Virus record (IMG/VR): IMGVR_UViG_3300047375_000952
Span: 85,404 to 149,403 of that record
Strand: one strand, 5' to 3'
Source of the DNA: a virus
Length of the DNA: 64,000 nt
Under the pieces are notes generated by a model, which made no database searches, was not told the DNA's origin, and worked only from the letters and a program-made list of their open reading frames with translations. Shown here piece after piece: positions 4,457-62,755 of the stretch. Made by a program: the position numbers and the translations under genes. How positions within the stretch are numbered: position 1 is the stretch's first letter; the number at the start of each line of letters is the position of its first letter.

Positions 4457-5296
4457 ATGAGAAGAACAGCTTCAGAAATAGTCAACTACCTTGAGATGAG
4501 AGTAGCAAGCCTCGAAAAGCAGGCGATCTTCGGTCTTTTTAAGGGTCGAGAAGAGGTAACTCTTGAGAGCGAGCAAAAACTTCTAGAGAGCCACGTCAAA
4601 GCGACAAGAGGTGTTTCTGATGTTTCTATCGACTTATCTGACAAGAAGAAGATAACGATGGACGTAAGATTTCATGGAGTTCATTTCCATTTCGTAGGGA
4701 AGTGTATACAAGACTTAGAGAGGGTCTACGACGGATATTACAAAAGCGCGAACCCTTCGCTGTTCTTAATGCAGAGAGCAAGGTCTACGGGAAGATCCCC
4801 AAGTTTAGGTGGTGGGAGACGTATGGGAGGCATTGGGAATATATATAGTTTCCAACATGGCGACACTCGCTTTTCTCTCCACACAGATTCAGGAGAGATC
4901 TATCGTAAGAATAACAACGAGATCTACGAGAAGCTCAAGGCGCTACTCTCTAAGAATTCAGGGTCTCTTGAGAAGAGAGCGGGGGGAGGTATTGGTTTCT
5001 TCTCTATGCTCATTCTTATGCAGAGAGAGTTAGATAGAGAAGATGATATTTACGTCACCTCAGAAGAGTTGGAAACCGCTTTAAAAGACTATCTTTCTCT
5101 ACATGGCTTACCTATACAGACTAAATTTGAGAAGGTAGATCTCGACCTGTACAGAGATCCCGATGGTTTAGAGCTTACTTTTGAGGCTGATGGTAGATAC
5201 TTTTATACAGAGCTAAGTTGGAATGAAGAGGGTCGATACGAAACACGGGATATAGAGCCCTCTTTTAAGAAAGGCAAAGTGAGAGAGCTTAAATGA
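4457..5296 (+). CDS. N-terminally tagged protein (RTASE..RVASLEKQA type), 279 aa
   Basis: The first 29 residues carry the recurring tag MRRTASEIVNYLEMRVAS followed by LEKQAIFGLFKG. The body is unrecognised: a mixed alpha/beta region, a glycine/arginine-rich linker (about 112-127) and an acidic C-terminal half. The tag combines the MRRTASE form also found at 60431, 62137 and 62492 with the RVAS...EKQA.FGLF form found at 54718, which links the two tag types. The leader CGGAGAAAGAACATG matches the leaders of the other tagged genes. It converges on the GIY-YIG gene with an 8-nt overlap. The product is possibly a virion or internal protein. Confidence 0.75.
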   Translation: MRRTASEIVNYLEMRVASLEKQAIFGLFKGREEVTLESEQKLLESHVKATRGVSDVSIDLSDKKKITMDVRFHGVHFHFVGKCIQDLERVYDGYYKSANPSLFLMQRARSTGRSPSLGGGRRMGGIGNIYSFQHGDTRFSLHTDSGEIYRKNNNEIYEKLKALLSKNSGSLEKRAGGGIGFFSMLILMQRELDREDDIYVTSEELETALKDYLSLHGLPIQTKFEKVDLDLYRDPDGLELTFEADGRYFYTELSWNEEGRYETRDIEPSFKKGKVRELK

Positions 5297-5609
5297 GGTT
5301 CTTGCCTCTGCACCATTTAGACTGTTCCTCTGTCCAGTATAACCTAGCCTTACCTCGCTTCTTCTTAAGAGCTAACTCTGCTTTCATAGCTTCAGATCTG
5401 TTAGCGTATGTGCCATAGGTACACATGAGCTTCCAAGGTCTATGCTTTGATGTATATTTACCCCCACCTCTTATTTCTCCGTTGTGTTGTCTCAGTCTAC
5501 GGCTAACATCTGTAGTACACCCAACGTAGAAGAATCCCTCAGTAGGCTTTCCACTTGCTGTCTTTCGAGGTTGCTGACTCTGAATGACATATACGACCCA
5601 TTCGTTCAT
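5289..5609 (-). CDS. GIY-YIG nuclease domain protein
   Basis: A 106-aa single-domain protein. It has the two strands of the GIY-YIG fold as VYVIQS (about 6-11) and FYVGCT (27-32), the arginine-rich helix DVSRRLRQHN, then KYTSKHRPWKLM and the helix SEAMKAELALKKKRG, which is typical of the UvrC-N/YhbQ-like small group. It probably cleaves DNA as a small structure-specific or free-standing homing-type endonuclease. It sits alone on the minus strand between plus-strand genes and has its own TTCTGATAT motif, which fits a mobile cassette. Confidence 0.85.
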   Translation of the reverse strand: MNEWVVYVIQSQQPRKTASGKPTEGFFYVGCTTDVSRRLRQHNGEIRGGGKYTSKHRPWKLMCTYGTYANRSEAMKAELALKKKRGKARLYWTEEQSKWCRGKNLI

Positions 5610-5641
5610 GTTAGATCCTTTATACTTAACTGTTTTTAACT

Positions 5642-5650
5642 ATATCAGAA
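5642..5650 (-). promoter_or_regulatory. Promoter-like motif TTCTGATAT, copy 3
   Basis: The minus strand reads TTTTCTGATATAGTT, about 33 nt before the GIY-YIG start. TG-A-TATAGT fits an extended -10 element. Confidence 0.5.
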
Positions 5651-5664
5651 AAGACATTTCTTTA

Positions 5665-5673
5665 GGGGGGGGG
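5665..5673 (+). repeat. Homopolymer tract of nine G upstream of the 765-aa gene
   Basis: Nine consecutive G residues end six bases before the ATG at 5680 and overlap the place where the Shine-Dalgarno site must lie. Such tracts are prone to slippage and could alter ribosome-site spacing. A matching nine-C tract lies at 61783-61791. Confidence 0.6.
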
Positions 5674-5679
5674 TGTTAG

Positions 5680-7977
5680 ATGAGCGCATCAAGAAGAGTC
5701 GCTTCAAGATACCTGAAAGCACTTAAAAAATCAGAGAGCGAGACAGTCTTTGACCTTATCGACAAAAAGTTTAAAGATTGGGAGGACTGTTTCAAGCCTA
5801 CAGGAAACATTGTTCAGTACACCACAGTGAAGGGATGGTCTTACCTTTCAGAGAAAGAAAGAGCTGATCCTCTAAACAAAGCTAGATATGATTTCGCTCT
5901 CAAGTTATTTGAGGGCTTCAACGAAGCGGTTCAGAAAGACATCTCCAAGCAGGTTGTTGAGAACTTATCTAAGCCTAATCTCGGGCTACCTGAAGACGTC
6001 TTTTCTGATAACAAGCTCAACCTGACTCTCCAAGAGACTTCTGAAGAGTCCTTAAAAGCTTTAGCGAGTGAGGTTAGTCGTAGCTTTAAGACTGATGGTT
6101 TTCAGAGGGGTGCGTTGAAGCAGTTTTGGGACGCATCTATCGGCGACGAGTTTCTAAGAAGAACTCCGAAGATGCTCGGAGATATTCTGTCTCTTAAGGT
6201 CTTGAAGTCAAAGAAAAAAGATGAGAATCCTGAAGTCAGGCAGATGGTTAGAAATTGCTCTCTTAATTGGACTATGACTACGGTTCTCCCCCTGTTAGGT
6301 TGGGGCGCTGGAGCTCAAGGGGGGGTTGCTTCTGTTAATGCGGTTGCGGGGTTAGCGACCACCAATATCTTAACTGCTTTAGGTGCTACAGGTGTGGTTG
6401 CTACAGTGGGGTCTACCGCAGTTGCTTTTGGGGCGGGGATGGTTTTCTACAAGAAAGCACTACATCAGCTCTCAAGCAAAAGGAGAGAAAGTGCCTCTAA
6501 CTTCGACAGCCTAGCTTCAGATATATACTCAGGCTATCAAACTCCCGAAGGGGTGGAGGCTGAGTACAGTAAAAAGCTACAGTCTGTCTTAGAAGACAAA
6601 TCTCTTTCTCCAAAAGACGCGAGAGAAAAGATATGTGGGCTTTATTCTGACTTTCAAGAAAACGCAAGACCCTCGATAGATAAGGGTCTAAAACAGTTAG
6701 GTTATGAGGGTCACTCAGAGGCGTATACTCCGATGAAGAAGTTTCAGAGTTTCTTTAACTCCCTGAAGCTCGGTTCAGAAGATAAGTTACCTACTTTCGT
6801 AATGTTGGCGCGGATGAAACACTTCTATGACGTTCAAGACATGATTTTAGAAGAGTTAGAGAAAGACCCTGTGGGGATAGGTAATGAGATGAGGTCTTAC
6901 TTAAGCGGAGAGAAAGAAATAGACCAAGAGCTAGTAGATGCCCTTAGCTTAAGTAAGAAAAGCTCAAAGACCTCTTCAGCAAGTAGGGTTCTCGATAAGT
7001 CGTTAATGAAGCCATATAAGAAAACGATCCCCCATTCAGAAAGAGAGCTAGAAATGGATCAAAGACATTTGAAGAGACAGGTTGTCCGTCAGGTTATGCA
7101 GAGAAGAGCGAGTCAGAACTCTTACGAGGGTCAGATCAGAACCGCTGCTATGTACTATCAGGCGGGCGCGAAAGACTCACTTAAGGCGATGCTTCTTAAG
7201 TATGTCGTGAACCCTATCGACAAGTTCCGCAGACATCTCGACCTTTTCACGATGCCTGTAGATGACCTCATGGATGACGTGATTGAGGCGATTGCCCCTG
7301 AAGTCGCGGAGAAGATGCTTGAGGCAGAGGTTGACGCAGACTTTGAAGAGTTTGAACAGGGTGCAAAGCTCCGTAACCAAGAGCGCGCCATGTCTCGCGG
7401 AGGCTATGTAGATGAGCTCGATCCTCCTAGCGATAAGAGCCCTGAGTTTATTGAGGGTTATGTGTGGGGAGACACTAACCAACTCCCTGTACCTCCATCA
7501 GTTAAGAAGAAGTTGGTTGAGGAGGCTGCTCAGGAGCACAGTAAGAAAGTTATTGAGAGAGCCCTCAAGAAAGCATGGCATACGATCAACCCCATCGAGA
7601 TCATCAAACACGCCTTTGAGATCATTAAGAAATACGGTTGGGATGCAGATGCAGATAAACAGTGGTATATCAAGTGGCCTATGCGCGTATTCAAGGTTGT
7701 TCTCATGGCAATCGCGGTGGCGTTTGTGGAGGTTCTTGAGCACTACCTCTTGCCTTATGTCTTAGTTAAGCTGACAGGCATTGAGGCGCTTTGGGCGACT
7801 GCTTCTATCCCTCTTCTTGAGATCATCACACCTATCATTATCGCGTACTTCAAGGGCGCGAAAGACGATGTGGTCGATGAGCCAGGTCACCTCGATTGGT
7901 ATGAGGAGAACTACGGTGAGATCGAAGAGGTTCTAGATGATAACGTGTTCGGAAAGAATGCCTCTTACGCCTACTAA
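5680..7977 (+). CDS. Large tagged protein with hydrophobic segments, 765 aa
   Basis: The N-terminus MSASRRVASRYLKALKK is the RVASRYL form of the recurring tag. Two hydrophobic regions stand out: a glycine/alanine/threonine-rich stretch at about 197-258 and a C-terminal pair of membrane-like helices at about 673-724 (VLMAIAVAFVEVLEHYLLPY and following). The middle is charged and helical. At about residue 473 there is an internal MQRRASQ followed by RTAAMYYQAGAKDS, which looks like a second tag-like start. The protein may therefore be a fusion, or contain two modules. No enzyme motif is recognised. A membrane-active virion or injected protein is a guess. It converges on the Nudix gene with stop codons overlapping (CTAA). 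Confidence 0.75.
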   Translation: MSASRRVASRYLKALKKSESETVFDLIDKKFKDWEDCFKPTGNIVQYTTVKGWSYLSEKERADPLNKARYDFALKLFEGFNEAVQKDISKQVVENLSKPNLGLPEDVFSDNKLNLTLQETSEESLKALASEVSRSFKTDGFQRGALKQFWDASIGDEFLRRTPKMLGDILSLKVLKSKKKDENPEVRQMVRNCSLNWTMTTVLPLLGWGAGAQGGVASVNAVAGLATTNILTALGATGVVATVGSTAVAFGAGMVFYKKALHQLSSKRRESASNFDSLASDIYSGYQTPEGVEAEYSKKLQSVLEDKSLSPKDAREKICGLYSDFQENARPSIDKGLKQLGYEGHSEAYTPMKKFQSFFNSLKLGSEDKLPTFVMLARMKHFYDVQDMILEELEKDPVGIGNEMRSYLSGEKEIDQELVDALSLSKKSSKTSSASRVLDKSLMKPYKKTIPHSERELEMDQRHLKRQVVRQVMQRRASQNSYEGQIRTAAMYYQAGAKDSLKAMLLKYVVNPIDKFRRHLDLFTMPVDDLMDDVIEAIAPEVAEKMLEAEVDADFEEFEQGAKLRNQERAMSRGGYVDELDPPSDKSPEFIEGYVWGDTNQLPVPPSVKKKLVEEAAQEHSKKVIERALKKAWHTINPIEIIKHAFEIIKKYGWDADADKQWYIKWPMRVFKVVLMAIAVAFVEVLEHYLLPYVLVKLTGIEALWATASIPLLEIITPIIIAYFKGAKDDVVDEPGHLDWYEENYGEIEEVLDDNVFGKNASYAY

Positions 7978-8375
7978 GTCTTAGGTGGCGCGATGGGCTG
8001 AGGGGGCTTTATTTCTTTCCTGAACAGGTGGTTGATCGGCTTCCTATCTTTAGGGTGTAGAGGCAGAGAGAGAACACTTGATTTCTCGAACCACCTCCAT
8101 TCAGAGTGTTCTTCGTTGAGCGTGGGTGCGAAAAAGTAGTCCACGTCAGCTAGAAAGAGCGTGTAGCCTCTTGTGTCTATGTGGTCATAGACCCTAAAAG
8201 GGGGCGTCTCTCCTATCTCTTCATTCATTTCTCTGAGAGCGGTCTGATAGCGAGACTCTCCCATCTCTGAGCTTCCGCCAGGACAGTTCCAATATCCTCC
8301 CCATTGGTCGTTTCTTCTATTTCTCTTGAGGAGGAGAACCCTCCCATCTTTCTGTAATAAGACTCCTGCGCCCAT
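7974..8375 (-). CDS. Nudix hydrolase
   Basis: A 133-aa protein with a complete Nudix box: GSSEMGESRYQTALREMNEE followed by IGE, fitting Gx5Ex7REUxEExGU. The flanking beta strands (GVLLQKDGRVLLLKRN and WRWFE) are typical. It hydrolyses a nucleoside diphosphate derivative; phage members often act on oxidised nucleotides, ADP-ribose or RNA caps, and the substrate cannot be read from the sequence. AAAAGGAG precedes its ATG. It starts back to back with the 536-aa gene and shares the divergent promoter region 8376-8437. Confidence 0.92.
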   Translation of the reverse strand: MGAGVLLQKDGRVLLLKRNRRNDQWGGYWNCPGGSSEMGESRYQTALREMNEEIGETPPFRVYDHIDTRGYTLFLADVDYFFAPTLNEEHSEWRWFEKSSVLSLPLHPKDRKPINHLFRKEIKPPQPIAPPKT

Positions 8376-8437
8376 ATCTGTACTCCTTTTATGTGTTCGA
8401 CTGCACTGTAAAGACTACCATATAAGGAGTTCAGAGG

Positions 8438-10048
8438 ATGACATCTCGAAGACCTATAAAACCGCCCCTACTTTTTAATAATCTTGGAGACAGAACAAGG
8501 TGTGACGGGCCTGATTTAATCAGGGAAAGGATCAGAACAGTCTACGGACCTGAGATTACAGAGTCTGAAATAGACGGTATGTTTGTTGTTCACTCAAGAA
8601 ACTATGATCTTCAAAGAAAGTACGAAAACCTTGTATACGCCAATCAGAATTTGACCCACCGCTATTTCCATAGATTAGACAACCATCCCTATGAGGGGGA
8701 TACGGTAGAGATTACTCTTGAGTTGACGTCGCACTCTCAAGCCCGAATGGATTCACGCTGTGTTCCAAAAGAAGAGCTTATAAAAGCTATTCAGAATTAC
8801 CTTGACGGCCTCGCCGAACTTTGGAACTCAGGTGATAAGAGCGAATACAAGGAGAGAGCGAGGCACTTTCTAGAGGGTTCGCGAGCAAAAAATGATGGTA
8901 TTTTTTACCGAAGTGAAAGAGAAGAAAGAATGGAGTTCAGACTACCTGTGGTGGGAGGCGGGGTGGTATCATACGAAGGCTATAAACTACCTGCTCAATC
9001 AATAACTTTAAAAGTCCCTAGTCTTGTTAATACGTCAGGAAAAGGTTCTGCGGGGCGCTTAACTAGAGGGGAGATCAAGGTTAAGAAGTGTATTAATAAG
9101 TTAGAGGATCTTAACTTCATAGTTAACACCCCATCTAACCAAAGAAGAGCTTCTTTCGGAGGTCCTTACACTGTAGTTGTCCCAAGTATGGGAGATTGGT
9201 TGCCCCGAGCTAGAGGGCAGGTTAAAACCCTTTCTATTTCTGTCAATCTGAACGGGAAAGAACGAGAGATTGGGGACATCAAGGGAGGGAACTTGAGAAG
9301 ATCTCTCAAGCCATTCACTTTAGCTCTCCAAACTTGGGTTAGGTTGAACTTGAGAGATAAAGCGCAGAGTGATGACCCTGAATATGTCAGGAACGCGGAA
9401 GCCTTCTACAAAAATGGATTTACCATCACTGACTCGGAAGGCGTCTCTTACACTCTCAGCCCTAGTCGTGGATTCAAACCCTTAAGAGGATCTTTCAGAG
9501 GCTTCAACAGAGTGTACTTTTCAGCAGACACTATGTATGGCTCTCCTAATACCATAGAAGCAGAGCTTGTTCTTTCTGACATCAGCGCGGGGGCTTCTTC
9601 AGAGCTTTCAAATCAGAGGAAGATTAACAGGGTTTTGAAGGAGTGTCTTGATATTCTCTTAGATGATGGTCATCAGGTGATCGACCCTCTCGGTCAAGAG
9701 GTTACTCGCGATCAAATTAGGACAGCGCGCTTCTTTGGGCTTCTCAGCACACCGATGTCTAACTTTGAGATGAAGAGGTTTGTAGACCAACTGAGGTGGA
9801 TGTTCAGAAAAGGTCAGCTAGACGTAGTACACCACGTTGACAGGACAAACACTTTCCACATCATCAGGCTCTCCGCTAAGGGCGTTACGGTCGAGGTAAA
9901 GGGCTTCTTCGTCAACCAAGATGGACCAGGGTCTAACTATAAGAATATAAGAGTCGTCGTGGATGGTGTTCCTAAGAGGGTGGGCGAACCTAAAGAGGCG
10001 CAAGATTTCATCTTTGAGGTGTTCTCTGAGCTCGGCCTCAGAAGGTAA
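8438..10048 (+). CDS. Hypothetical protein, 536 aa
   Basis: I do not recognise the whole protein. A short stretch ELTSHSQARMDSRCVPKEEL (about 97-116) recalls the H.RM..R.I....L motif of DUF4258/BrnT-like small RNase-fold domains, but the match is short and may be chance. Several beta-rich regions follow (VVGGGVVSYEGYKLPAQSIT; SPSRGFKPLRGSFRGFNRVY). There are no membrane segments and no clear catalytic motif. It precedes the tagged acetyltransferase-like gene by 11 nt and is probably in the same transcript. AAGGAG lies about 12 bases upstream of its ATG. Confidence 0.6.
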   Translation: MTSRRPIKPPLLFNNLGDRTRCDGPDLIRERIRTVYGPEITESEIDGMFVVHSRNYDLQRKYENLVYANQNLTHRYFHRLDNHPYEGDTVEITLELTSHSQARMDSRCVPKEELIKAIQNYLDGLAELWNSGDKSEYKERARHFLEGSRAKNDGIFYRSEREERMEFRLPVVGGGVVSYEGYKLPAQSITLKVPSLVNTSGKGSAGRLTRGEIKVKKCINKLEDLNFIVNTPSNQRRASFGGPYTVVVPSMGDWLPRARGQVKTLSISVNLNGKEREIGDIKGGNLRRSLKPFTLALQTWVRLNLRDKAQSDDPEYVRNAEAFYKNGFTITDSEGVSYTLSPSRGFKPLRGSFRGFNRVYFSADTMYGSPNTIEAELVLSDISAGASSELSNQRKINRVLKECLDILLDDGHQVIDPLGQEVTRDQIRTARFFGLLSTPMSNFEMKRFVDQLRWMFRKGQLDVVHHVDRTNTFHIIRLSAKGVTVEVKGFFVNQDGPGSNYKNIRVVVDGVPKRVGEPKEAQDFIFEVFSELGLRR

Positions 10049-10059
10049 GGACATAAAAA

Positions 10060-10569
10060 GTGAAGCCTTGCGAGAGAGTAGCCTCTATGTACCTGTCAGC
10101 GTCTTCTTCTCTTGTTTATGTCAGAGAAACAGATGGAGACCACTTCTACATAGTTCTTTATAAAAGAACTACGGGTGAGAGGTCAAAGGTAGTGGGGCTC
10201 ATCAATGCCAGTCTAGCAACCTTTGACCTCACTAGTTCTAATGATCTGACAAACTCACCTTGCATTCGTGATGTGAGAATCCTACTCCAAGAGTTTCCCT
10301 CTCTTCGTGGTAGGGGAGGTGAGGTGACAGTGCTTATCATGAACGAAAGCGAACTTAACTCAGAATATCAAAATCAAGGAATAGGCAAGAGCCTATATCT
10401 GAAGTGTATGGGAGAGGGTTGGAAAGACAATGGGCGCAAGCCATTCCTCTTTGTACCCCACTATTGCATGGATGGCGTGACCTCAAACGAGGCAAGGCGG
10501 GTCTGGACATCCTTAGCAAGAAGGTATCCTTCATCGGGCGATTGTATCGCAGTACTTGAAGCCCCCTAA
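10060..10569 (+). CDS. Tagged GNAT-like acetyltransferase
   Basis: A 169-aa protein starting at GTG, with TAAGGA upstream. The N-terminus MKPCERVASMYLSASSS is the RVAS tag. The C-terminal half has SEYQNQGIGKSLYLKCM, matching the acetyl-CoA binding motif A (Q/RxxGxG/A) of GNAT enzymes, then PFLFVPHYCMDGVTSNEARR and VWTSLARRYPSSGD. The last block recurs almost unchanged in the gene at 13236, so the two are paralogues with the same tag. The substrate is unknown. Its stop overlaps the stop of a small broken gene on the other strand. Confidence 0.65.
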   Translation: MKPCERVASMYLSASSSLVYVRETDGDHFYIVLYKRTTGERSKVVGLINASLATFDLTSSNDLTNSPCIRDVRILLQEFPSLRGRGGEVTVLIMNESELNSEYQNQGIGKSLYLKCMGEGWKDNGRKPFLFVPHYCMDGVTSNEARRVWTSLARRYPSSGDCIAVLEAP

Positions 10570-12870: not shown

Positions 12871-13239
12871 ATGAAGAGCTTATATCACTACAAAGCAGAG
12901 GTCATTTCTGTCTATGACGGAGACACTGTGACCTTGATGATTGATCAGGGCATGAAGCACTTCGCGCGCGTCAAAGTCAGGCTTGTTGGGATCAACACCC
13001 CTGAGATCAGAACAACAGACCTCGAAGAGAAAGAAAGAGGCTACTCGGCAAAAAACTTTCTTAAGGAATTGATCGAGGGAAAGACTGTCATCGTCCACAC
13101 TGTTAAGAAGGGTAAGTTCGGGAGGTGGCTCGGTGTCCTGTGGCTCTATGAAGAGGACATGACTGAGCTAGGTCAATCCCTTAATGACCTCATGATCCAA
13201 GAGGGTCACGCAGTTGCCTACGACGGAGGCAAGCGGTGA
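12871..13239 (+). CDS. Thermonuclease (Staphylococcal nuclease family)
   Basis: A 122-aa SNase-fold protein. The start at 12871 has AAAGGA upstream and begins one base after the previous stop. Key elements are VYDGDTVTLMID (calcium-ligand Asp, residues 15-25), VRLVGINTPEIR (catalytic Arg and Glu; the usual Asp is Asn here, as in other phage members), YSAKNFLKELIEGKTV and KFGRWLGVLW with the second catalytic Arg. No signal peptide is seen, so it acts in the cytoplasm or is packaged. It would cleave DNA or RNA with calcium. It overlaps the next gene by four bases (GTGA). Confidence 0.9.
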   Translation: MKSLYHYKAEVISVYDGDTVTLMIDQGMKHFARVKVRLVGINTPEIRTTDLEEKERGYSAKNFLKELIEGKTVIVHTVKKGKFGRWLGVLWLYEEDMTELGQSLNDLMIQEGHAVAYDGGKR

Positions 13240-13808
13240 GTATGTCGATCCGAGTCGCGAGCCGACACATGATGGCAAAAGGCACTCTACCTGAAGATTA
13301 CTCACTTACGCCTGAGAGGATGTCGAGAGAGCGCCGTCTCGTCGCTAAGTCTCAAGTCTCTTTCCACAGAGAGAGCGGTTGGGACATAGACTCCGACTCG
13401 TTGACGAGTGTCATACAGGCATACTCTGAAGACAAGTTAATAGGCGATTTTGAGGCTACGGTTTCTCTAGTCCATATGGATGAGCTAGATGAGTACGTCT
13501 GCTATGAGGAAATGGCTGAGCTTGTCTCTGACCATTCAGCTCTCCTCAATCCTGATGGTAAGGTATACGTCGTGGAAGTGATTAACTCCTACTTAGAAGA
13601 GGGCTTCAGGGGGCGTAAGTGTGGTCTTGAGGGCTACTTAAGACTCGCCCACTACGTCTTTGAGAGACGCACTAAGAGAGTCCCTTTCTTGTTCATTCCC
13701 AACTACTGTAACTCGAACCCCACTTCAGATCACGCTCTGCGTGTGTGGCGCTCGCTTGCAAGGAGATACCCATCTAAAGATGATGTGGTCGTGATCAACA
13801 AGTCTTAG
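13236..13808 (+). CDS. Tagged GNAT-like protein, paralogue of the 10060 gene
   Basis: A 190-aa protein starting at GTG (13236) with GGAGG six bases upstream; ATG 13242 is the alternative. The tag is SIRVASRHMMAK. The C-terminal half has EEGFRGRKCGLEGYLRLAHY in the acetyl-CoA motif A position, then VPFLFIPNYCNSNPTSDHAL and RVWRSLARRYPSKDD, closely matching the 10060 product. The two differ in the first half, so they may act on different substrates. It overlaps the thermonuclease gene and converges on the sigma-like gene, with the stops sharing three bases. Confidence 0.65.
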   Translation: MSMSIRVASRHMMAKGTLPEDYSLTPERMSRERRLVAKSQVSFHRESGWDIDSDSLTSVIQAYSEDKLIGDFEATVSLVHMDELDEYVCYEEMAELVSDHSALLNPDGKVYVVEVINSYLEEGFRGRKCGLEGYLRLAHYVFERRTKRVPFLFIPNYCNSNPTSDHALRVWRSLARRYPSKDDVVVINKS

Positions 13809-54229: not shown

Positions 54230-54718
54230 TTACCTGTAAACGCTCGTAGTACTGATGTCTAGCTGACGTACAACCTCATCCTGAGTCTTGATGTACGCTT
54301 TAGGAACACGCTCTTTCCTAAGAAGATCTCTCAAGAAGCTCTCAAGCTCTCTGTCTGAGATGTTAGAATCAACGCCCGACGCCGTAATCGTAGTGAAGAG
54401 GTCTGTGATGTTGTCTCTGTAGTCCCTGTTTTTCTGAAGAACTTTTGTCCCGACAGTGACGAGGATCTCTTTCCCTTTGAGGCTCAATGTAATGGAATCT
54501 TGACCGCGCTCGAAGCCGAGACTGTTTTTAAGCCATTCAGCCTGAACGCCCCTCTGAGGGCTACCAAACATCATAAGAGTATAGCTGTTGTAGCTTGTCT
54601 TATGATGTTTTGAACTGTCAGGGCTGTCCTTGAACATCTTGTCAAATAACCCGAATAAAGCTTGCTTCTCCATGTGAGCAGAAGCGACTCTTATAATCAT
54701 TCTTTTCTTAGTACTCAT
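54230..54718 (-). CDS. Tagged protein (RVAS...EKQALFGLF type), 162 aa
   Basis: The start is at 54718, where AGGAG lies six bases upstream; an ATG further out (54784) lies inside the upstream gene and lacks a ribosome site. The N-terminus holds IIRVASAHMEKQALFGLFDK, nearly the same as the RVASLEKQAIFGLF of the 4457 product. The body is unrecognised, with a strand pair SITLSLKGKEILVTVGTKVL and a C-terminal helical part. It follows six bases before the zincin gene. The shared tag suggests common targeting with the 4457 protein. Confidence 0.65.
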   Translation of the reverse strand: MSTKKRMIIRVASAHMEKQALFGLFDKMFKDSPDSSKHHKTSYNSYTLMMFGSPQRGVQAEWLKNSLGFERGQDSITLSLKGKEILVTVGTKVLQKNRDYRDNITDLFTTITASGVDSNISDRELESFLRDLLRKERVPKAYIKTQDEVVRQLDISTTSVYR

Positions 54719-55293: not shown

Positions 55294-55744
55294 AGCCTTT
55301 TCTCCTCATTACTTTCTTAACGACCTCTTTCTTGATCTGCTTCATGTCTTTAGATGCTTCAGGAAGAGGCTCTTCAGGGTCTACTTTCGGCGCTTCCCCG
55401 AAGCCCTTTGGAACACCCTTTACTTTCTCTTCTGTGTCGATGACGAGTTGGTTAAGAGTGGAAAACTCTTTTCCGCCAGGCTTTTCTTTGATTTCTGAAG
55501 GAGGGGGTGGAGCTACGAGAGCCTCTTTCTTAGCTTCTTCTTTAGTCCTGTCAGGGTTGTCGGACATCCCTATGCTGTGCTTAGCTGTGTCGGGGTCATT
55601 AGAAAGAGCCTTGGACTCAGCGAGTTGCTTCACAGACTTATGGAGAGGGTTGTCAAAAAACACATCTTCAGCTTTCGTACTTTTTACTTTCGATGTGCGT
55701 TCAAGGCGAGCTACCCTGACCATCAAATCATACAGTCTATCCAT
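55271..55744 (-). CDS. Tagged, charged, proline-rich protein, 157 aa
   Basis: The N-terminus MDRLYDLMVRVARLERTSK is a variant of the tag (RVARLER). The rest is highly charged and likely disordered (Lys, Glu and Pro rich, with APPPPSEIKEKPGGKE). It ends in a basic helix (IKKEVVKKVMRRKGY). AAGAAGGTGAG precedes the ATG. It is first of a minus-strand group that includes another tagged gene and the zincin. The composition resembles scaffold or internal head proteins, but this is inference. Confidence 0.6.
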   Translation of the reverse strand: MDRLYDLMVRVARLERTSKVKSTKAEDVFFDNPLHKSVKQLAESKALSNDPDTAKHSIGMSDNPDRTKEEAKKEALVAPPPPSEIKEKPGGKEFSTLNQLVIDTEEKVKGVPKGFGEAPKVDPEEPLPEASKDMKQIKKEVVKKVMRRKGYVITNSK

Positions 55745-57345: not shown

Positions 57346-57357
57346 CTCTACTGCCTT

Positions 57358-57396
57358 TCAATCGGTACTTTTCTGATGGGGATTTATACCGATTGA
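57358..57396. promoter_or_regulatory. 10-bp inverted repeat TCAATCGGTA/TACCGATTGA in leader
   Basis: Perfect 10-bp arms (57358-57367 and 57387-57396) flank 19 bases containing TTTTCTGATGGGGATT. The left arm plus C (TCAATCGGTAC) also occurs at 63820-63830. Both copies lie 12 bases from a minus-strand start. It is a likely regulator-binding site or RNA hairpin. Confidence 0.55.
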
Positions 57397-57446
57397 GTCC
57401 GTCGCTTTCCACAACCTGAAAATATAGGTGCGGTAGATGTCCTAAC

Positions 57447-58250
57447 CTACCCTTGATCGCTAAGATTGCCTCCTGTATGAGAGGCTTTGACTAATCGGTT
57501 GTACTTCTTTCTCACAGAGAAAACTGACTTCTGTAGGCGAGCTGAGATTTCTCGGAAAGAAAGCCCTTGATCATCTCTAAGAGAGAGTAAGGTGGAATTC
57601 TCTTCATCTGTCCACCGATTGCTCGGCGCAATCATCAAACATCTCGCTTTCGCTCTTACAGCTTCAGGGCTTCTCCCTAGCTCTTGAGAGAGCGCGGTGA
57701 AAGACACTCCCTCTTGAATGCGTTGAGTTAAGGTTTCAAAGTCACTTTCAGTCCAAGGATTGATCTGTAGTGAAAGATTCATCTTAGTGGCTTTCAACTT
57801 GATTGAGAGGGGAGTACGCTTTATATGCTCCGAGATCTCTAGGGATGTCATCAGACCTACATTTTCCCTTAAGAAAGAAGTCTCTTTCCGAGTCCACTCT
57901 CCTTTTCTTTTCTTGGTTCTCTTGTAACCTCTAACCGAGCGCACAGGAATCCCCAAGTGACGGAGCTTGTAGTTAACCGAACTGACAGACCTTTTGAGGT
58001 GAGAAGCCATTTCAGGGATGGTCTTCTTCTTTACCGCTGTCTTAAGATATTTGATCTCATCTTCAGACCACGAGCTAGGAGGCTTCTTTCTCGATTGATG
58101 GTGCTTGACCCTCAGACCCAAAGAATGGAGCTTTCGCCTCACCGCGCCTTCACTGCGCCCCATTCTCTCGCTCAGTTCTTTAAGAGTGAGAAAGTCCACC
58201 ATCACAGAAATGGTAAGCACATCTTCAACTGACCACTTAGGAGCGCCCAT
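57447..58250 (-). CDS. Protein with five tandem Myb/SANT-like helix-turn-helix modules, 267 aa
   Basis: Five modules begin with W plus acidic residues at 6, 61, 119, 166 and 213 (WSVEDV, WSEDEI, WTRKET, WTESDF, WTDEEN). Each continues with a pattern like L..EIS..L.RS..SV..K...LGI. This is the Myb/SANT or GcrA-like trihelical DNA-binding fold, and the repeats make up nearly the whole protein. A multi-module array would read a long or repeated site. It may be a transcription regulator or a DNA-organising protein. The modules are diverged from each other, so the array is old. It starts six bases after the gene upstream ends. Confidence 0.75.
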   Translation of the reverse strand: MGAPKWSVEDVLTISVMVDFLTLKELSERMGRSEGAVRRKLHSLGLRVKHHQSRKKPPSSWSEDEIKYLKTAVKKKTIPEMASHLKRSVSSVNYKLRHLGIPVRSVRGYKRTKKRKGEWTRKETSFLRENVGLMTSLEISEHIKRTPLSIKLKATKMNLSLQINPWTESDFETLTQRIQEGVSFTALSQELGRSPEAVRAKARCLMIAPSNRWTDEENSTLLSLRDDQGLSFREISARLQKSVFSVRKKYNRLVKASHTGGNLSDQG

Positions 58251-58256
58251 TCTAAC

Positions 58257-58472
58257 TCACTCTTCGATAACGTGGACTTCGTAAAACTTAATGACCCAAC
58301 CATAGGTGTCTGAGATGTGGTCAAGTAAGTCGTGCTCATCAATCTCACCATGATCCTCGCCAAGAGGAATCTCGATCTTTTCAGGCAACTCAGAGTAAGG
58401 GGTCTCACCTTCGTAAGTCAGGCCGTCTACGGTGGGTTCTACCCACTTCAACACAACTCTCAAATGCTTCAT
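58257..58472 (-). CDS. Hypothetical acidic protein, 71 aa
   Basis: I do not recognise this protein. It is small and acidic, with strands MKHLRVVLKWVEP and WVIKFYEVHVIEE around an acidic helix (EDHGEIDEHDLLDHISDTY). It overlaps the upstream gene by four bases and is part of the minus-strand group that runs from 59226. Confidence 0.6.
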   Translation of the reverse strand: MKHLRVVLKWVEPTVDGLTYEGETPYSELPEKIEIPLGEDHGEIDEHDLLDHISDTYGWVIKFYEVHVIEE

Positions 58473-58696
58473 CTTTGACCTTCTTTCATAAGTCTTTTCA
58501 AATTATAGTAGGATGATTTTGACATCTCAACGACCCTACAGTCACCCACGCTTAAGAGATCAGGTCGAGGGCTAAAGCTAACGTACTGAGTTACACCTTG
58601 AGATTCACAGATGTGGACTTCCACAATCCTTGTGAGGTCTAGGTAAAAAAATAAGATAAAGAGTCCAATAAAGGCGACTGCACCTAGTTTCTCCAT
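58469..58696 (-). CDS. Small membrane protein, 75 aa
   Basis: One N-terminal membrane helix (LGAVAFIGLFILFFYL, about 4-19) is followed by a soluble tail with two Cys (C29, C53). This is the topology of a small anchored protein. It follows two bases after the SLOG gene stop, overlaps the next gene and has no recognised family. Confidence 0.6.
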   Translation of the reverse strand: MEKLGAVAFIGLFILFFYLDLTRIVEVHICESQGVTQYVSFSPRPDLLSVGDCRVVEMSKSSYYNLKRLMKEGQR

Positions 58697-58698
58697 GT

Positions 58699-59226
58699 TC
58701 AGTTCTCTTCCTTCAGAGCCCTCAGAAAATCTGCGAACTCTTCTTTCTGTGTTCTCAGGTTGTAGGTCGGAATACCGATGGCGCTCGCTGCTCTCACGGC
58801 ATAGCGCGTCCCACCTGAATCCCGACCTTCTTCCAAAGGATTTCCGTTACTCCAATAGACCACGAAGTCTACGGGGATGATACCCTCTACGGATTCAGAA
58901 TCACCGTAGATTTGATACATATTTCGAGTGATTAAGCCGATGGTGTAAGCCTTCATCTTTTCGAGAGGGTACTCCCAACAGACGTCAGAGGCTTTCTCAA
59001 TAGCCCACTCCTGTAGAGGGAAGTGACTCTCAGAGGGTCGCCATATCTGCTTGAACCCCCTGACGTTATTACACCCACGCTCAAAGTAAGTATCTGCGCC
59101 CTTTGCCCCTCCTGAGCGAAGCACATAGCCTTTCTCAGCGAAGAAAGAGCCGATCTTCTCCATCTGAAGTAGGACTTTCTGTGGTGTCTCACGCGAGCCG
59201 ATTCCTGTATAGTGTTTGACTCTCAT
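58699..59226 (-). CDS. SLOG/DprA-like Rossmann protein, 175 aa
   Basis: HYTGIGSRETPQKVLLQMEK opens a Rossmann fold. VLRSGGAKGADTYFERG is the classic (L)RSGGA.GAD..FE.G motif of the DprA/SLOG family seen in many phages. A later strand, DFVVYWSNGNP, and GGTRYAVRAASAIGIP complete the fold. SLOG proteins bind nucleotides or nucleotide-derived ligands, and single-domain phage copies have unclear roles. It is first of the minus-strand group 59226-56033 and has the TTCTGATAT motif upstream. Confidence 0.85.
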   Translation of the reverse strand: MRVKHYTGIGSRETPQKVLLQMEKIGSFFAEKGYVLRSGGAKGADTYFERGCNNVRGFKQIWRPSESHFPLQEWAIEKASDVCWEYPLEKMKAYTIGLITRNMYQIYGDSESVEGIIPVDFVVYWSNGNPLEEGRDSGGTRYAVRAASAIGIPTYNLRTQKEEFADFLRALKEEN

Positions 59227-59259
59227 TCTTATACCCTTTCATTCGAGTCTCCCAACCAC

Positions 59260-59268
59260 ATATCAGAA
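59260..59268 (-). promoter_or_regulatory. Promoter-like motif TTCTGATAT, copy 4
   Basis: The minus strand reads GGTTCTGATATGTGG about 34 nt before the SLOG gene start. The distance agrees with the other three copies. Confidence 0.5.
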
Positions 59269-59411
59269 CCTATGCGAGCCCTCCCATAGTTTATTTATCG
59301 GGGAGATGACCTTTTGGCGTATCTGCCTACCCACCACGTTAAGAAAGAAACCGCCATGAGAAACAGAGTGCTTTTAGCCGTCCTTACTCTTAGCAGTCGG
59401 TGAGGGCTGAG

Positions 59412-59549
59412 ATGCTTTACAAGCTGTGTGCCTGCGTCCTCTCTCTGCTCGCGCTCTTTGGTATTGCTCAGGCAGAGCCTAAGAAAGTAGAAGAGAAAAG
59501 AGTTTACTTTTCGAGCTCGGCTAAAGACTCTTTGAGGCACTCCAACTGA
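59412..59549 (+). CDS. Small secreted protein candidate, 45 aa
   Basis: An ATG with GAGGG five bases upstream opens a 45-codon frame. It starts with a signal-peptide-like stretch CVLSLLALFGIAQAEPKK, with likely cleavage after AQA, then a charged tail. Two tiny frames precede it (17 and 15 codons, the first ending as the second begins in ATGA). It overlaps the end of the minus-strand coiled-coil gene by 46 bases. The pattern recalls small exported or Rz1-like proteins, but there is no lipobox Cys after the cleavage point. Confidence 0.4.
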   Translation: MLYKLCACVLSLLALFGIAQAEPKKVEEKRVYFSSSAKDSLRHSN

Positions 59550-59686
59550 GCTTTTGTCTTCTCAATCTGCTCTCTGAGATCTCTCTCTTTATCTCTCTTA
59601 GTAGTTTTATGACCTCTAGGAAGTGAGGGAGACTCATTCATCTTTTTGATTACCTCGATACACCACACAGCAAACCTCTTTTCCAC
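59504..59686 (-). CDS. Small coiled-coil protein, 60 aa
   Basis: The C-terminal half (RDLREQIEKTKAQLECLKES) is a clear short coiled coil with heptad spacing. The GTG start at 59686 lacks a good ribosome site; ATG at residue 16, with GAGG about ten bases upstream, is an alternative giving 45 aa. I do not recognise it. The following gap to 59846 holds an A/T-rich weak hairpin and a 17-codon frame only. Confidence 0.45.
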   Translation of the reverse strand: MEKRFAVWCIEVIKKMNESPSLPRGHKTTKRDKERDLREQIEKTKAQLECLKESLAELEK

Positions 59687-59846
59687 ATAGATTTAGGTGT
59701 GTAAGAATACCTCTCAGTGAAGCAAAGAACACCAAAAACATGAGGTTTTTTTAAGGGATGGGACTTACTATGTCCAACCTAACAAGAAAGCTCAAAAGAG
59801 AATACGCAAAGAAAGGACTTTAGAGCGTATTTATTTAAAAGCTGAC

Positions 59847-60431
59847 TTAACTAAGGTTAATACTAACCTTAACATGATCCCCTTTTCTTCTAGAGTCATA
59901 TAAGTCCCAATGCCTCATAAATTCATTAAGATCAATCGCCTTTCCAGATTTTCGAGTGGAAGATACTACTCTTCCGTCAGAGTCCGACACGAACAGATAA
60001 CTGAACGCGATCTGCTCAGGAAACTCGTGTGAGAAAGAGAACTCTTGATGGTTAAAGGACACCAAAAAGTTAAACCGATCTTCAGAAGAAGTAACTCTAA
60101 TGGAAACAAGGTTACGATTCAAGCTTTCCCCAAGACCCATGCCCGCGATGATAGGCGTGATCTTATCCTCAAAGAATCTTAAAACAGACTCTCGATTTGA
60201 AACAAAAGAGGGCCTGATAGTAGACGCTTTTTTCCCCGATGTATCAAGTTCACTAACGTGGGGCTGATGGCCACATTTCTCACAAAAATAATAACCCCCA
60301 CCTAAAGCTTCAAGTGGCGTGTGGTAGCAATCGGGACAGTACAGATCGCCGTCATAATGAGTTGACTGTTTCTCAAGACGAGCAATCCTGTTCTCAAGAT
60401 TATGAAGGACTTCTGATGCAGATCTTCTCAT
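59847..60431 (-). CDS. Tagged zinc-ribbon protein, 194 aa
   Basis: The start at 60431 has CGGAG eight bases upstream. The tag is MRRSASEVLHNLENRIARLE followed by KQS. A zinc ribbon follows with C32, C35 (CPDC), C50 and C53 (CEKC). The C-terminal domain (about 75-194) is a mixed alpha/beta region I do not recognise, with strands NRNLVSIRVTSSEDRFNFLV and FSYLFVSDSDGRVV. The overall plan (tag, linker, alpha/beta domain of about 100 aa) is like the 4457 product. Function unknown. Confidence 0.65.
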   Translation of the reverse strand: MRRSASEVLHNLENRIARLEKQSTHYDGDLYCPDCYHTPLEALGGGYYFCEKCGHQPHVSELDTSGKKASTIRPSFVSNRESVLRFFEDKITPIIAGMGLGESLNRNLVSIRVTSSEDRFNFLVSFNHQEFSFSHEFPEQIAFSYLFVSDSDGRVVSSTRKSGKAIDLNEFMRHWDLYDSRRKGDHVKVSINLS

Positions 60432-60522
60432 GGTTTTTCTCCGTTTAGCTGTTAAAGAGATCATTTGTGAGAAAACATATAAAGTCTACCGAATAAGAAC
60501 GCCTCTGACCCCCTCCTCAATC

Positions 60523-60663
60523 TCAGCCCCATTTTGGGTTGATTTCTTTCTTAGATGACTCTCTGTCTGAGCAATTCTCTTTACGGTTAGTGGTAGGGCA
60601 TTTTGACCCCTCCCACGTCTCGCGTTTACACTTTAAGCAGTAGATTGTTCGCTCTGCGTACAT
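60523..60663 (-). CDS. Tiny cysteine-motif protein, 46 aa
   Basis: AAAGGAC lies about 11 bases before the ATG. The protein starts MYAERTIYCLKCKRETWEGS and has Cys at 9, 12, 22 and 31, a likely zinc-finger arrangement. The frame reads cleanly to TGA. It sits in the gap between the tagged zinc-ribbon gene and the 108-aa gene, on the same strand. It may be a small DNA- or protein-binding factor. Confidence 0.5.
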   Translation of the reverse strand: MYAERTIYCLKCKRETWEGSKCPTTNRKENCSDRESSKKEINPKWG

Positions 60664-60739
60664 TTCACATAAGTCCTTTCTTAATGTAAAGTGGGTAGGG
60701 ATGGGCTGTCAGAGGATATCAGCGCGATTTCGATCTCTG

Positions 60740-61066
60740 TTAAGAGTCCTTATCACAGATCGAGGGAAACTCATTTTCGATCTTTTGGGCGATATCTAAG
60801 ATATTATATAAAGAAAGATCAGTTGTACACTCCTCTTCCGCTCTCCCATACTCATATGAGAACGCAAAATCGAGTGCATAGGTTTTGATGTCGGGGCTCA
60901 TTTCTCTGCCCTGAGAAAGATACGTTGCCACGATCTTCGCGCCGTTCAGAATGTCTTCAATTGTAGGGTAATCCCCTAAGCCACAGGAATGTAGGTAAAC
61001 GAGATGATCTCTTGAGGTTGAGATTGCTTGTTCAGTGATATGGAGTGTCTCTTGACTGATCTTCAT
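60740..61066 (-). CDS. Hypothetical helical protein, 108 aa
   Basis: I do not recognise this protein. It is mostly helical and acidic, with EDILNGAKIVATYLSQGREM and YNILDIAQKIENEF, no Cys pairs and no membrane segment. AAAGGG precedes the ATG by about eight bases. Confidence 0.55.
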   Translation of the reverse strand: MKISQETLHITEQAISTSRDHLVYLHSCGLGDYPTIEDILNGAKIVATYLSQGREMSPDIKTYALDFAFSYEYGRAEEECTTDLSLYNILDIAQKIENEFPSICDKDS

Positions 61067-61111
61067 TACAGGACCCTTTTTTTCATTCTTATTTATGTAC
61101 TTGATAAGAAC

Positions 61112-61204
61112 CTATTCTTTCTTAAATAAATAGAAGAGAGTCACCCCCATCAAAAAACAATAGATGAACACTGAATAGTCGGGCAATATCTGTTCTGAGG
61201 GCAA
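61112..61204 (-). CDS. Tiny membrane peptide candidate, 30 aa
   Basis: A TTG start with AGGA eight bases upstream opens a 30-codon frame ending in TAG. It encodes a short polar start, one membrane helix (YSVFIYCFLMGVTLFYLF) and a KKE end. It lies between the tRNA-Arg(UCU) gene and the 108-aa gene on the same strand. Support is limited to composition and the ribosome site. Confidence 0.35.
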   Translation of the reverse strand: MPSEQILPDYSVFIYCFLMGVTLFYLFKKE

Positions 61205-61242
61205 GGGCTTTATCCTATTAAGAAAGAATAAGGTTAGATAAC

Positions 61243-61314
61243 GCACCAAGTAGGGCTCGAACCTACGACCTTGGGCTTAGAAGGCCCCTGCTCTTCCGAC
61301 TGAGCTATTGGTGC
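61243..61314 (-). tRNA. tRNA-Arg (anticodon TCT)
   Basis: A perfect 7-bp acceptor stem (GCACCAA/TTGGTGC), D arm GCTCAGTCGGAAGAGC, anticodon loop CTTCTAA (TCT, reading AGA) and T arm GTAGG-TTCGAGC-CCTAC. The top pair of the anticodon stem is a G-A mismatch. CCA is not encoded. It is the most distal of three genes in the minus-strand cluster. Confidence 0.9.
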
Positions 61315-61397
61315 TTAATGTTCCTTTTTTACCACAACCCACTAGGAACGACAGTGGGTGGAAGAAGCACTTTAAGTGCTACGTGATTATCTATACC

Positions 61398-61475
61398 TTA
61401 TTTACCTTTTGGCGCGTTACCTCGACCACCACCGCTTGGGTTAGGTGTCGAAGATGGATAGTTAGGGTTTCCCAT
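61398..61475 (-). CDS. Tiny protein, 25 aa, Pro/Gly/Asn-rich
   Basis: TAGGAG lies eight bases before the ATG, and the 25-codon frame ends in TAA. The product begins MGNPNYPSSTPNPSGGGRGN and ends APKGK; it is basic and disordered. TATAAAAATA lies just upstream and could be part of a promoter. It is between the two tRNA-Arg genes on the same strand. Confidence 0.45.
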   Translation of the reverse strand: MGNPNYPSSTPNPSGGGRGNAPKGK

Positions 61476-61646
61476 GACTATACTCCTATTTTTATATTGT
61501 ACTCTTAAGTGTAGTGGAGAAGTTTCTTAGCTTCTTAGGTCTAAGAGTTTGACCTACCTTGTTCCATATCAGTTCCTCACGACTAAGGGCTTTTGTGAGT
61601 TTACTGTCCTTGTGCTTGCTTTAAAGCTAAATCGCACCTACACGAT

Positions 61647-61677
61647 TTTCTTTTATTTAAGGAAGTAATAAAAGAAA
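61647..61677. terminator. 11-bp A/T-rich perfect hairpin between tRNA genes
   Basis: TTTCTTTTATT and AATAAAAGAAA pair perfectly around a nine-base loop. It lies just downstream of tRNA-Arg(CCT) on the minus strand. It lacks a GC-rich stem, so it may be a processing signal rather than a terminator. The rest of 61476-61693 shows nothing else to me. Confidence 0.35.
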
Positions 61678-61693
61678 GTAGATATGGTCTAAT

Positions 61694-61765
61694 ACACTCA
61701 ACAGGGCTCGAACCTGTGACCCCCACTTTAGGAAAGTGGTGCTCTTCCGACTGAGCTATGAGTGC
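61694..61765 (-). tRNA. tRNA-Arg (anticodon CCT)
   Basis: Acceptor GCACTCA/TGAGTGT (G-T at the end pair), D arm GCTCAGTCGGAAGAGC identical to the first tRNA, anticodon stem CCACT/AGTGG with loop TTCCTAA (CCT, reading AGG), and T arm ACAGG-TTCGAGC-CCTGT. CCA is not encoded. Confidence 0.92.
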
Positions 61766-61782
61766 TTAAAAAGACTACAGCA

Positions 61783-61791
61783 CCCCCCCCC
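61783..61791 (-). repeat. Homopolymer tract of nine C (G on the minus strand)
   Basis: A nine-base tract lies 18 bases upstream of the tRNA-Arg(CCT) gene. It matches in length the G tract before the 5680 gene. Confidence 0.6.
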
Positions 61792-61852
61792 GAAGTTGCT
61801 AAACCTTACTCTCAAACTACGATGTTGTAAGAAAGTAAGGAGGTAGTCTAGC

Positions 61853-61926
61853 ACACCTAACAGGAATCGAACCTGTAGTAGTCAGAGGAAGCCCACTGAC
61901 CGCTCTTTCCGTTGAGCTTTAGGTGT
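61853..61926 (-). tRNA. tRNA-like gene with enlarged anticodon loop (specificity unclear)
   Basis: Acceptor ACACCTA/TAGGTGT, D arm GCTCAACGGAAAGAGC and T arm ACAGG-TTCGATT-CCTGT are sound. The anticodon stem GTCAG/CTGAC encloses ten bases (TGGGCTTCCT) instead of seven, with a four-base variable loop. Candidate readings are TCC (Gly) or GGG (Pro). It may be a degraded or modified-function tRNA. It is nearest to the cluster promoter. Confidence 0.7.
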
Positions 61927-61995
61927 GGAGTAAGACTTATGCGAAATGTCAAAGATCAGAGGGCTGAGATCGAAGTCCTCTCAGCGCCATGTTAC

Positions 61996-62025
61996 ATTAT
62001 ACCGTAATCCGCACAGGCCGAATAA
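61996..62025 (-). promoter_or_regulatory. Sigma-70-like promoter for the tRNA cluster
   Basis: On the minus strand TTATTC, 18 bases, then TATAAT (perfect -10), about 70 bases upstream of the first tRNA-like gene. This is the only consensus -10 of this quality that I noticed in an intergenic gap. Confidence 0.55.
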
Positions 62026-62136
62026 GATTTTTTAGCTTTTCCCTACGAGCTTCCTCATATTTTTTGTCTCTTTACACTTTGGTAGTTAGTTTATTAAGCC
62101 TGAATGTGTACAGCCACCCATGAATGGAGAAAGACT

Positions 62137-62475
62137 ATGAGAAAAACAGCTTCAGAAGTAATCAATGAGCTTGAGAGGCGCATCACTCGTCTCGAAAGAA
62201 AGGCTTCTGTGAAGTACGTTGACCTCGAATATATCTACAAACTCGCACTGCTTTTTGGGCGTCAAAGGGGAGTTGAGAGCGTAAAGAAAGAGCTTCAGAG
62301 TTCTGGTCGAAATAGTGTCTCTATCTATCTAGCTAATGGAAACGTACTCTCTTATGAGATACACATGAGAAATGGACTCTTGGCGCTAACACCTGATGGT
62401 GCTGTTGGGTGGGGTCCTGTTTCTTTCGACGCCATGAAAGATATCCTTAATACGGATATTCAGAAGTACTCTTAA
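62137..62475 (+). CDS. Tagged protein (RKTASEV type), 112 aa
   Basis: The start at 62137 has TGGAGAAAG upstream, like the 4457 leader. The tag is MRKTASEVINELERRITRLE followed by RKAS. The remaining 85 residues form a small alpha/beta domain (VDLEYIYKLALLFGRQRGVE, then strands NSVSIYLANGNVLSYEIH) similar in plan to the ends of the other tagged proteins. Function unknown. It is followed 16 bases later by another tagged gene. Confidence 0.65.
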   Translation: MRKTASEVINELERRITRLERKASVKYVDLEYIYKLALLFGRQRGVESVKKELQSSGRNSVSIYLANGNVLSYEIHMRNGLLALTPDGAVGWGPVSFDAMKDILNTDIQKYS

Positions 62476-62491
62476 AATAAAGGAATCAGTC

Positions 62492-62755
62492 ATGAGAAGA
62501 ACAGCTTCAGAAATCATCCAAGATCTTGAAATGAGAATCGCCCGTCTTGAACTTGAAGATCCTAATAAAGAGACGAAGGTTCTTGAGACTCTCTTTGTCC
62601 AACTAGACGAATCATTCAAGAACTCTGTTGACTTACAACACATAATCAATAGGGACAGAGAGTTAAGAAATCATATCGCTGAGTACCTCAAGATCGAGGG
62701 TGCTAGCCGTAAGAAGCTTCAGAACTACGTCAAGAAAAGGTTGTTGGAAGCCTGA
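62492..62755 (+). CDS. Tagged helical protein (RRTASEI type), 87 aa
   Basis: The tag is MRRTASEIIQDLEMRIARLE; its first 23 nt are identical to those of the 4457 gene. The rest is fully helical (LETLFVQLDESFKNSVDLQH and GASRKKLQNYVKKRLLEA). AAAGGA precedes the ATG by about nine bases. It is the shortest member of the tagged set. The gap to 62830 contains only an 18-codon frame. Confidence 0.65.
   Translation: MRRTASEIIQDLEMRIARLELEDPNKETKVLETLFVQLDESFKNSVDLQHIINRDRELRNHIAEYLKIEGASRKKLQNYVKKRLLEA

Follow-up and report, generated by a model that had tools for sequence, protein, structure and literature searches.

The stretch of viral DNA analysed here, hereafter the window, comprises 64,000 nucleotides (bases 85404-149403 of a 149,403-base IMG/VR virus record), and several of its proteins begin with the same short peptide, the class A tag. 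In this phage and its relatives the tag stands on dozens of otherwise unrelated proteins, which are probably made late in infection. We propose that class A, and probably also a second kind of start, class B, is an N-terminal address that would load late-made accessory proteins into the particle, most likely into the prohead, so that in the following round of infection the cargo would be carried into the cell along with the DNA. We give this reading a probability of about one half (0.49). Searches of open-licence PMC papers brought up no earlier report of the tag or of its strings.

At 99.99% identity, the same phage is also contained in another IMG/VR record (275,102 bases), which was reverse-complemented and is called J below (window position = J position minus 187,413). 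J encodes a portal protein (PHROG match 2.5e-33), a major head protein (MCP; 3.9e-51), a head maturation protease (phrog_18299, 1.6e-15, with a family of unknown function scoring better, 1.6e-25), baseplate wedge proteins and a tail protein, as well as a DNA-metabolism set (SbcC/SbcD-like, UvsX-like and RuvC-like proteins, clamp loader, helicase, PhoH-like protein and thymidylate kinase). Relatives of its MCP are found in 517 viral-contig stretches, of which the best 80 were examined, and in a list of 211 named-phage records headed by the uncultured, 485-kb LR745208.1 (MCP 88.6% identical to that of J), Tunturiibacter phage Tunturi_5 (47.0%) and Bacillus phage G (38.2%). In the last, the portal, decoration and MCP genes follow the same order as in J, where J_086 is labelled decoration solely from its location before the MCP, as in phage G. 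The tag profile search covered 16 MCP-related contigs, and genes were called on nine of them (J, G002, G005, G007-G010, G013 and G014) with a simple in-house caller that overlooked or shortened a few starts (10060, 60431, J 138794).

Two families of shared N-termini

Class A has the consensus M-R/K-R-T/S-A-S-E-h-h-x-x-L-E-x-R-I/V-A-x-L-E and is strong in four products of the window and weak in a fifth. The tag at 4457 (4457..4525, plus strand; 56.0 bits) takes up 23 codons of a 279-residue product (4457..5296, plus strand) and continues into IFGLF; two homologs of this protein, G005_155 and G005_314, are likewise tagged. The other strong members are MRRSASEVLHNLENRIARLEKQS (60363..60431, minus strand; 54.4 bits), MRKTASEVINELERRITRLERKA (62137..62205, plus strand; 48.8 bits) and MRRTASEIIQDLEMRIARLELED (62492..62560, plus strand; 52.0 bits), and the weak one is MDRLYDLMVRVARLERTS (55691..55744, minus strand; 18.6 bits). 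A profile built from nine seeds and run over every possible start codon of J gave 11 matches at 41-57 bits, one at 18.6 bits (55744) and the next at 11.4 and below; the seeds came from J itself, which favours these scores, and the other genomes are independent. In three shuffled sets the top scores were 8.1, 7.6 and 11.8 bits.

The original prediction described a single portable peptide on nine otherwise unrelated proteins of the window. All nine open reading frames are present and the sharing of N-termini is real; however, two families are involved and not one. The remaining four products carry the class B consensus R-V-A-S-x-Y/H-L/M, which is shorter and statistically weaker than class A. 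They are MSASRRVASRYLKA, the start of a 765-residue product (5680..5721, plus strand), MKPCERVASMYLS (10060..10098, plus strand), MSMSIRVASRHMMA (13236..13277, plus strand, with an alternative Met at 13242) and the start at 54718 (54644..54718, minus strand), which has an EKQALFGLF flank in common with 4457. The bridge between the two types that had been seen at 4457 holds (RVASLEKQAIFGLF in 4457, RVASAHMEKQALFGLF in 54718). The claim that the bodies are unrelated fails for 10060 and 13236, which are homologous over 120 residues (33%, E 5e-19), and the GNAT, zinc-ribbon and membrane labels given to some bodies found no confirmation, since none of the nine proteins has a Pfam match above the curated cut-off and nothing convincing was found for them in Pfam or PHROGs.

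The pattern R[VI]A..[YFHW][LMI] occurs within the first 40 residues of 6 of the 255 called J proteins (10060 being missed by the gene caller), against 0.8 expected, and 396 of the 485 kb of LR745208.1 contain five class B-like starts against 0.5 expected. Among the 45 matches listed for the class A profile, 54718 is the only RVAS-type start (7.2 bits, E 1.7). Near the N-terminus of the head maturation protease, a segment W-D-K/R-V/I-R-V/I-A-S-G is present in all nine phages (alignment A3, residues 21-29); its V-R-V/I-A-S-G part may resemble class B, which we take as a lead only.

Profile A2 of class A matched 13 of the 16 MCP-related contigs at E <= 0.01, some of them weakly, and three had no match; the number of places ranges from 31 in the 375-kb G005 and 26 in the 312-kb G008 down to a single weak match. 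On the nine gene-called contigs, 114 proteins are tagged at 12 bits or more (91 at 20 or more, 68 at 30 or more): 10 in J, 31 in G005, 24 in G008, 16 in G002, 12 in G009, 11 in G007, 9 in G010, one in G013 and none in G014. The portability claimed for the tag is borne out in this larger set. In 104 of the 114 the tag is N-terminal (match beginning at residue 13 or earlier), and the proteins fall into 85 body groups, 62 of them singletons, by blastp at 1e-5, a threshold that leaves room for remote homology between groups. An alignment of 104 of the 114 proteins has a mean column identity of only 5%, with L12, R15 and E20 invariant and M1, E13, A17 and L19 conserved in at least 90%.

Each phage, or group of phages, uses its own dialect: MRRTASEILSDLE in J, MRRSASEIIRNLE in G005, G007 and G009, MRTASEVLRSLEARIARLE in G002, NKVSAQQIRSLEMRIARLE and RQLTASQKIAQLE in G008 and G010, and MISQKLASLEARIAKLE in G013, where most copies lie under the 12-bit limit. 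The part that stays constant is the helix core L-E-x-R-I/V-A-x-L-E. The A-S-E that had been compared to a prohead-protease site is not kept, as its E is replaced or missing in other dialects (TASQKIAQLE, SAQQIRSLE, MISQKLASLEARIAKLEQ), and cleavage at this site was therefore set aside as the core function of the tag.

The tag appears to be a phage feature. A strict class A DNA pattern had no exact match in genome_contigs (84,980 prokaryote species, each represented by a single genome, contigs under 3 kb excluded), which speaks against a motif common in bacterial proteins; as a control, it recovers 3 of the 4 strong window tags, matches 129 of 302 fetched loci and has no hit in 100 shuffles. 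Of 149 viral-contig stretches that contain the first nine residues, 134 were matched by tblastn as well. The 29-residue tag gave no tblastn match at E <= 10 among 50,697 named-phage records, a weak test with so short a query.

Selection, copying and the upstream motif

The ratio of nonsynonymous to synonymous differences (pN/pS) in the tags is 0.36-0.45 when tags of one phage are compared and 0.39 for G005 against J, which indicates that the peptide itself is kept by selection. At the same time, third positions of fourfold codons in the tags agree in 50-73% of cases within a phage, against 28-34% expected from codon usage (the G002 figure comprising 16 comparisons), and thus tags have been copied as DNA within a phage. 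In G005 the 5' leader and promoter region are also common to many tags. For 13 pairs of tagged proteins from the same body group, the tag of the partner was mostly no closer than the other tags of the same phage, with the clear exception of G005_019 and G007_163 (0.95), so the tag moves largely independently of the body.

Several bodies illustrate this exchange. The 2H-phosphoesterase-like body (Pfam tRNA_lig_CPD, 7e-8) begins with an RVAS-type start in each of G005, G007 and G009. Its J version has another start (LIRIAYENPHLRNKILP), its G010 version is not extended, and a second, weaker homolog in G005 (G005_238, 29%) has no tag. One G002 body carries the class A helix and its G005 homolog only MRRTA. 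Homologs of the protein that starts at 55744 (J_227) were found in LR745208.1 and in four of the eight contigs other than J, and members of this family begin with class A-like starts in five phages. The LR745208.1 homolog is a fusion in which a relative of J_093, whose gene lies near the MCP in J, precedes the J_227 domain, and SRVAKRFLEAQ stands immediately ahead of that domain. These cases, few as they are, suggest that class A and class B may do related jobs.

A promoter-like motif common to virion genes precedes many of the tagged genes. In G005 the motif TAGTTTATTTAT, counted with TTTAT fixed and up to two mismatches, is present 79 times where shuffles give 13.0, and 58 of the sites are followed by a start at a distance of 25-130 nt (median 57). 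The motif is found upstream of 21 of the 31 tagged genes and of 35 of the 392 untagged ones (p 1.5e-13); the corresponding figures are 8/11 and 24/250 in G007 (p 2.8e-6; 7/11 with a slightly different window) and 8/12 and 10/69 in G009 (p 4.0e-4), and since the motifs were picked after the upstream regions had been seen, these p-values are optimistic. When only genes with an upstream gap of at least 50 nt are compared, p is 2.5e-10, 3.9e-3 and 1.4e-3, respectively. None of the DNA-metabolism orthologs has the motif (0/9 in G005, 0/9 in G007, 0/3 in G009), and in G005 it precedes the gene leading the MCP operon, a baseplate wedge gene and a tail protein gene. From the genes that it serves, the motif is probably a late promoter. 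In J, a looser element is found upstream of 7 of the 12 class A genes and of 20 of the other 236 (p 4.6e-5, or 4.4e-4 when the comparison is limited to genes with a gap of at least 50 nt). A putative promoter element of the window, CTTTTATAG (4407..4415, plus strand), which virion genes share, lies 42-50 nt before the 4457 start. In G005 another string, GTAACCC, is a candidate early promoter: 57 of 429 genes have it in the 130 nt ahead of their start, and almost all of these lack a J homolog.

Proposed destination of the tagged proteins

A tag that is N-terminal, seen solely in phage contigs across the searches, portable between bodies, kept by selection and accompanied by a virion-type motif is what an address for loading the head predicts. 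The proposal that the shared peptide directs proteins into the head gains from all of these points; a conserved A-S-E cleavage site and a single peptide family find no support. We envisage that the short, coiled-coil-like helix L-E-x-R-I/V-A-x-L-E would dock onto a head component before the DNA is packaged, for which the neighbouring scaffold-like protein J_085 is our guess, and that late-made tagged cargo would in this way be taken up by the assembling particle, most likely the prohead, and reach the next cell together with the DNA. The genome would add cargo by placing the start before new genes, in one phage along with the 5' leader and promoter region. Cleavage of the tag may occur, since a protease is encoded, though no conserved site was seen. 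The literature search found no virion proteomics for this clade.

The best reading of the tag, by analogy, is a capsid-targeting-like address that would work like the signals of phages T4 and P1. In T4 only the first 10 residues of internal protein III (IPIII) are described as needed for head entry, and foreign cargo is accepted (PMC9026906). As described there, the capsid-targeting sequence (CTS) of internal proteins IPI-IPIII is likewise a short N-terminal peptide on divergent bodies, a likeness by description and not by sequence comparison. The two differ in that T4 propeptides are cleaved by gp21, whereas no conserved cleavage site was found in the tagged phages, and in scale, with up to 31 tagged places per phage in the jumbo clade. 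In P1 the N-terminal 30 residues of DarB direct a reporter to the capsid, and the authors report no consensus among the Dar N-termini (PMC9024508), in contrast to the one consensus across many bodies seen here. A third parallel is with the ejection proteins of SPN3US and phiKZ-like phages, giants that also have many inner-head proteins. In two of these proteins the N-terminal propeptide is 20-24 residues long; the remaining N-terminal propeptides of SPN3US have 111-254 residues and, in the portions of these reports consulted, are not described as one common short peptide (PMC10052503, PMC5694885), unlike the single tag shared here.

Pfam, PHROGs and PADLOC scans were run on 104 of the 114 tagged proteins, leaving out two that cross locus joins and eight of G008 and G010 that are mostly paralogs, and most bodies had no functional match. 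Pfam gave WGR (two proteins), pentapeptide repeats (one), an RNA-repair-type HAD (one), a cupin/JmjC-like domain (one) and HAAS below the cut-off; PHROGs gave one polynucleotide-kinase match, not assigned to a member, and PADLOC three weak matches. Class B starts are found on the HAD_SAK_1 protein of J and three of its homologs, two further homologs having none, and also on the 2H-phosphoesterase-like proteins. Enzymes of an RNA-repair kind whose genes carry a virion-type motif upstream would make more sense as cargo meant for the following infection than as enzymes acting late, although the class B proteins are few.

It must be taken into account that several results weigh against the head-loading reading, besides the optimistic p-values already mentioned. 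Ten of the 114 tags are internal, and the WGR, pentapeptide and HAD matches are all on reading frames with such internal tags, the first two after the tag and the HAD before it, so that among N-terminally tagged class A proteins only one, the cupin G008_177, has a Pfam match above the cut-off. In part, the internal tags look like gene fusions or in-frame downstream starts. The motif precedes only 10/32, 5/20 and 3/13 structural-region genes in G005, G007 and G009 (p 1.4e-4, 0.03 and 0.28, the last not significant; the gene list was assembled from position and a few PHROG matches), a low share because many of these genes sit inside operons. The looser J element precedes no more than 7 of 33 structural-region genes, and one of nine DNA-metabolism genes, the clamp loader, has it as well. 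For class B the support from the motif is weak (2/6 genes in G005, p 0.099; 4/7 in G007, p 0.003; 1/2 in G009; 2/7 in J, p 0.12). Searching LR745208.1, Tunturi_5 and Bacillus phage G with profile A2 gave no class A match at E <= 5, which shows little alone. Finally, an AlphaFold model of the 4457 product from one sequence was uninformative (mean predicted local distance difference test score, pLDDT, 38.7), and that of the head protease family from nine sequences was also too poor for a fold search (pLDDT 42.7).

The main rival is that the same helix serves oligomerisation or attachment in another late structure, such as the tail, baseplate, collar or a shared complex. In the core, hydrophobic residues recur at the 3-4 intervals of a short coiled coil, with R and E kept at the right spacing, and R-h-x-x-h-E, the trimerisation motif of trimeric coiled coils, is present in all 111 aligned tags of the 114, a count that the profile and the regular expression favour. 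A promoter-like motif would moreover suit any virion part. However, if dozens of proteins in one phage bore homotypic coiled coils, cross-oligomerisation among them would be expected, and no tail or baseplate family of PHROGs is matched by the tagged proteins scanned (104 of 114), which leaves this explanation unlikely. Slightly less likely still is an address within the infected cell, to the membrane or to a replication or assembly site: short N-terminal helices are capable of such a role, and confinement to phage contigs would agree with any phage-specific receptor, yet the peptide should then be found on early and late genes alike, and the motif precedes 21 of the 31 tagged genes of G005 and none of its nine DNA-metabolism orthologs.

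If promoter, 5' leader and first codons were copied together as an expression cassette driving new genes, the peptide would be a mere by-product. The common leader of G005 and the excess agreement of third positions would then be accounted for; the low pN/pS both within phages (0.36-0.45) and between G005 and J (0.39), the persistence of the helix core between phages whose first codons differ and the motif before 35 untagged G005 genes make such a cassette improbable. That these are ordinary coiled-coil N-termini, alike by chance or simple paralogy, seems most improbable in view of the 85 body groups, of scores of 41-57 bits against at most 11.8 in shuffled controls, and of the lack of any match to the strict pattern in the prokaryote genomes searched, even though some bodies are indeed paralogous (10060 and 13236, and a group of nine in G008 and G010).

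Beyond the head-loading reading itself, we tentatively entertain a broader possibility, in which a widespread clade of uncultured jumbo phages can extend its cargo without a fixed limit. A start module, mobile and in at least one phage accompanied by promoter and leader, would be copied before unrelated genes and make particle cargo of each product, a single phage might deliver about 30 different proteins as infection begins, and several interchangeable dialects (class A, class B and perhaps others) would serve the same loading machinery. Should the head-loading reading be right, a phage would gain virion cargo by copying one start module instead of evolving a signal for each protein, the delivered protein cargo of uncultured jumbo phages, which otherwise calls for purified virions, could be read from sequence, and the tag could serve as a small N-terminal handle by which proteins are loaded into very large capsids.

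Other observations in these phages

The MCP (L019:7497-8372) is 91-100% identical across the best 80 of its 517 relative stretches, and 95-98% identical between J and the eight other contigs despite a GC content that spans 31% to 47%. In-frame class A tags that have an ATG of their own lie at residue 303-306 of G005_091, G007_257 and G009_042, between J_145-like and WGR parts, and would reflect either a gene fusion or an internal start.

Other N-terminal patterns were also noticed. Several small proteins (about 110 residues) of the G008, G007 and G005 loci begin with a different common motif around N-G-x-R-x-W, and a third pattern around L/M-I-R-x-A-Y/H-x-N is found in J_016 (L023:11270-11920), J_095 (J 99026-100576) and J_114 (L017:17349-17921); it is repeated in the Lys-rich J_095, near the head genes. 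In an EF-hand family, G005_242, G002_202, G013_161 and G014_161 carry Q-P-L-R/M-x-x-x-D-Y-G, which is absent from J_162 (L015:14900-15523) and resembles the MCP N-arm TQPLRLRRDYTS; capsid mimicry is a possible explanation. In the window, two tRNA-Arg genes with anticodons tct and cct lie at 61242-61314 and 61693-61765, near the tagged genes at 62137 and 62492.

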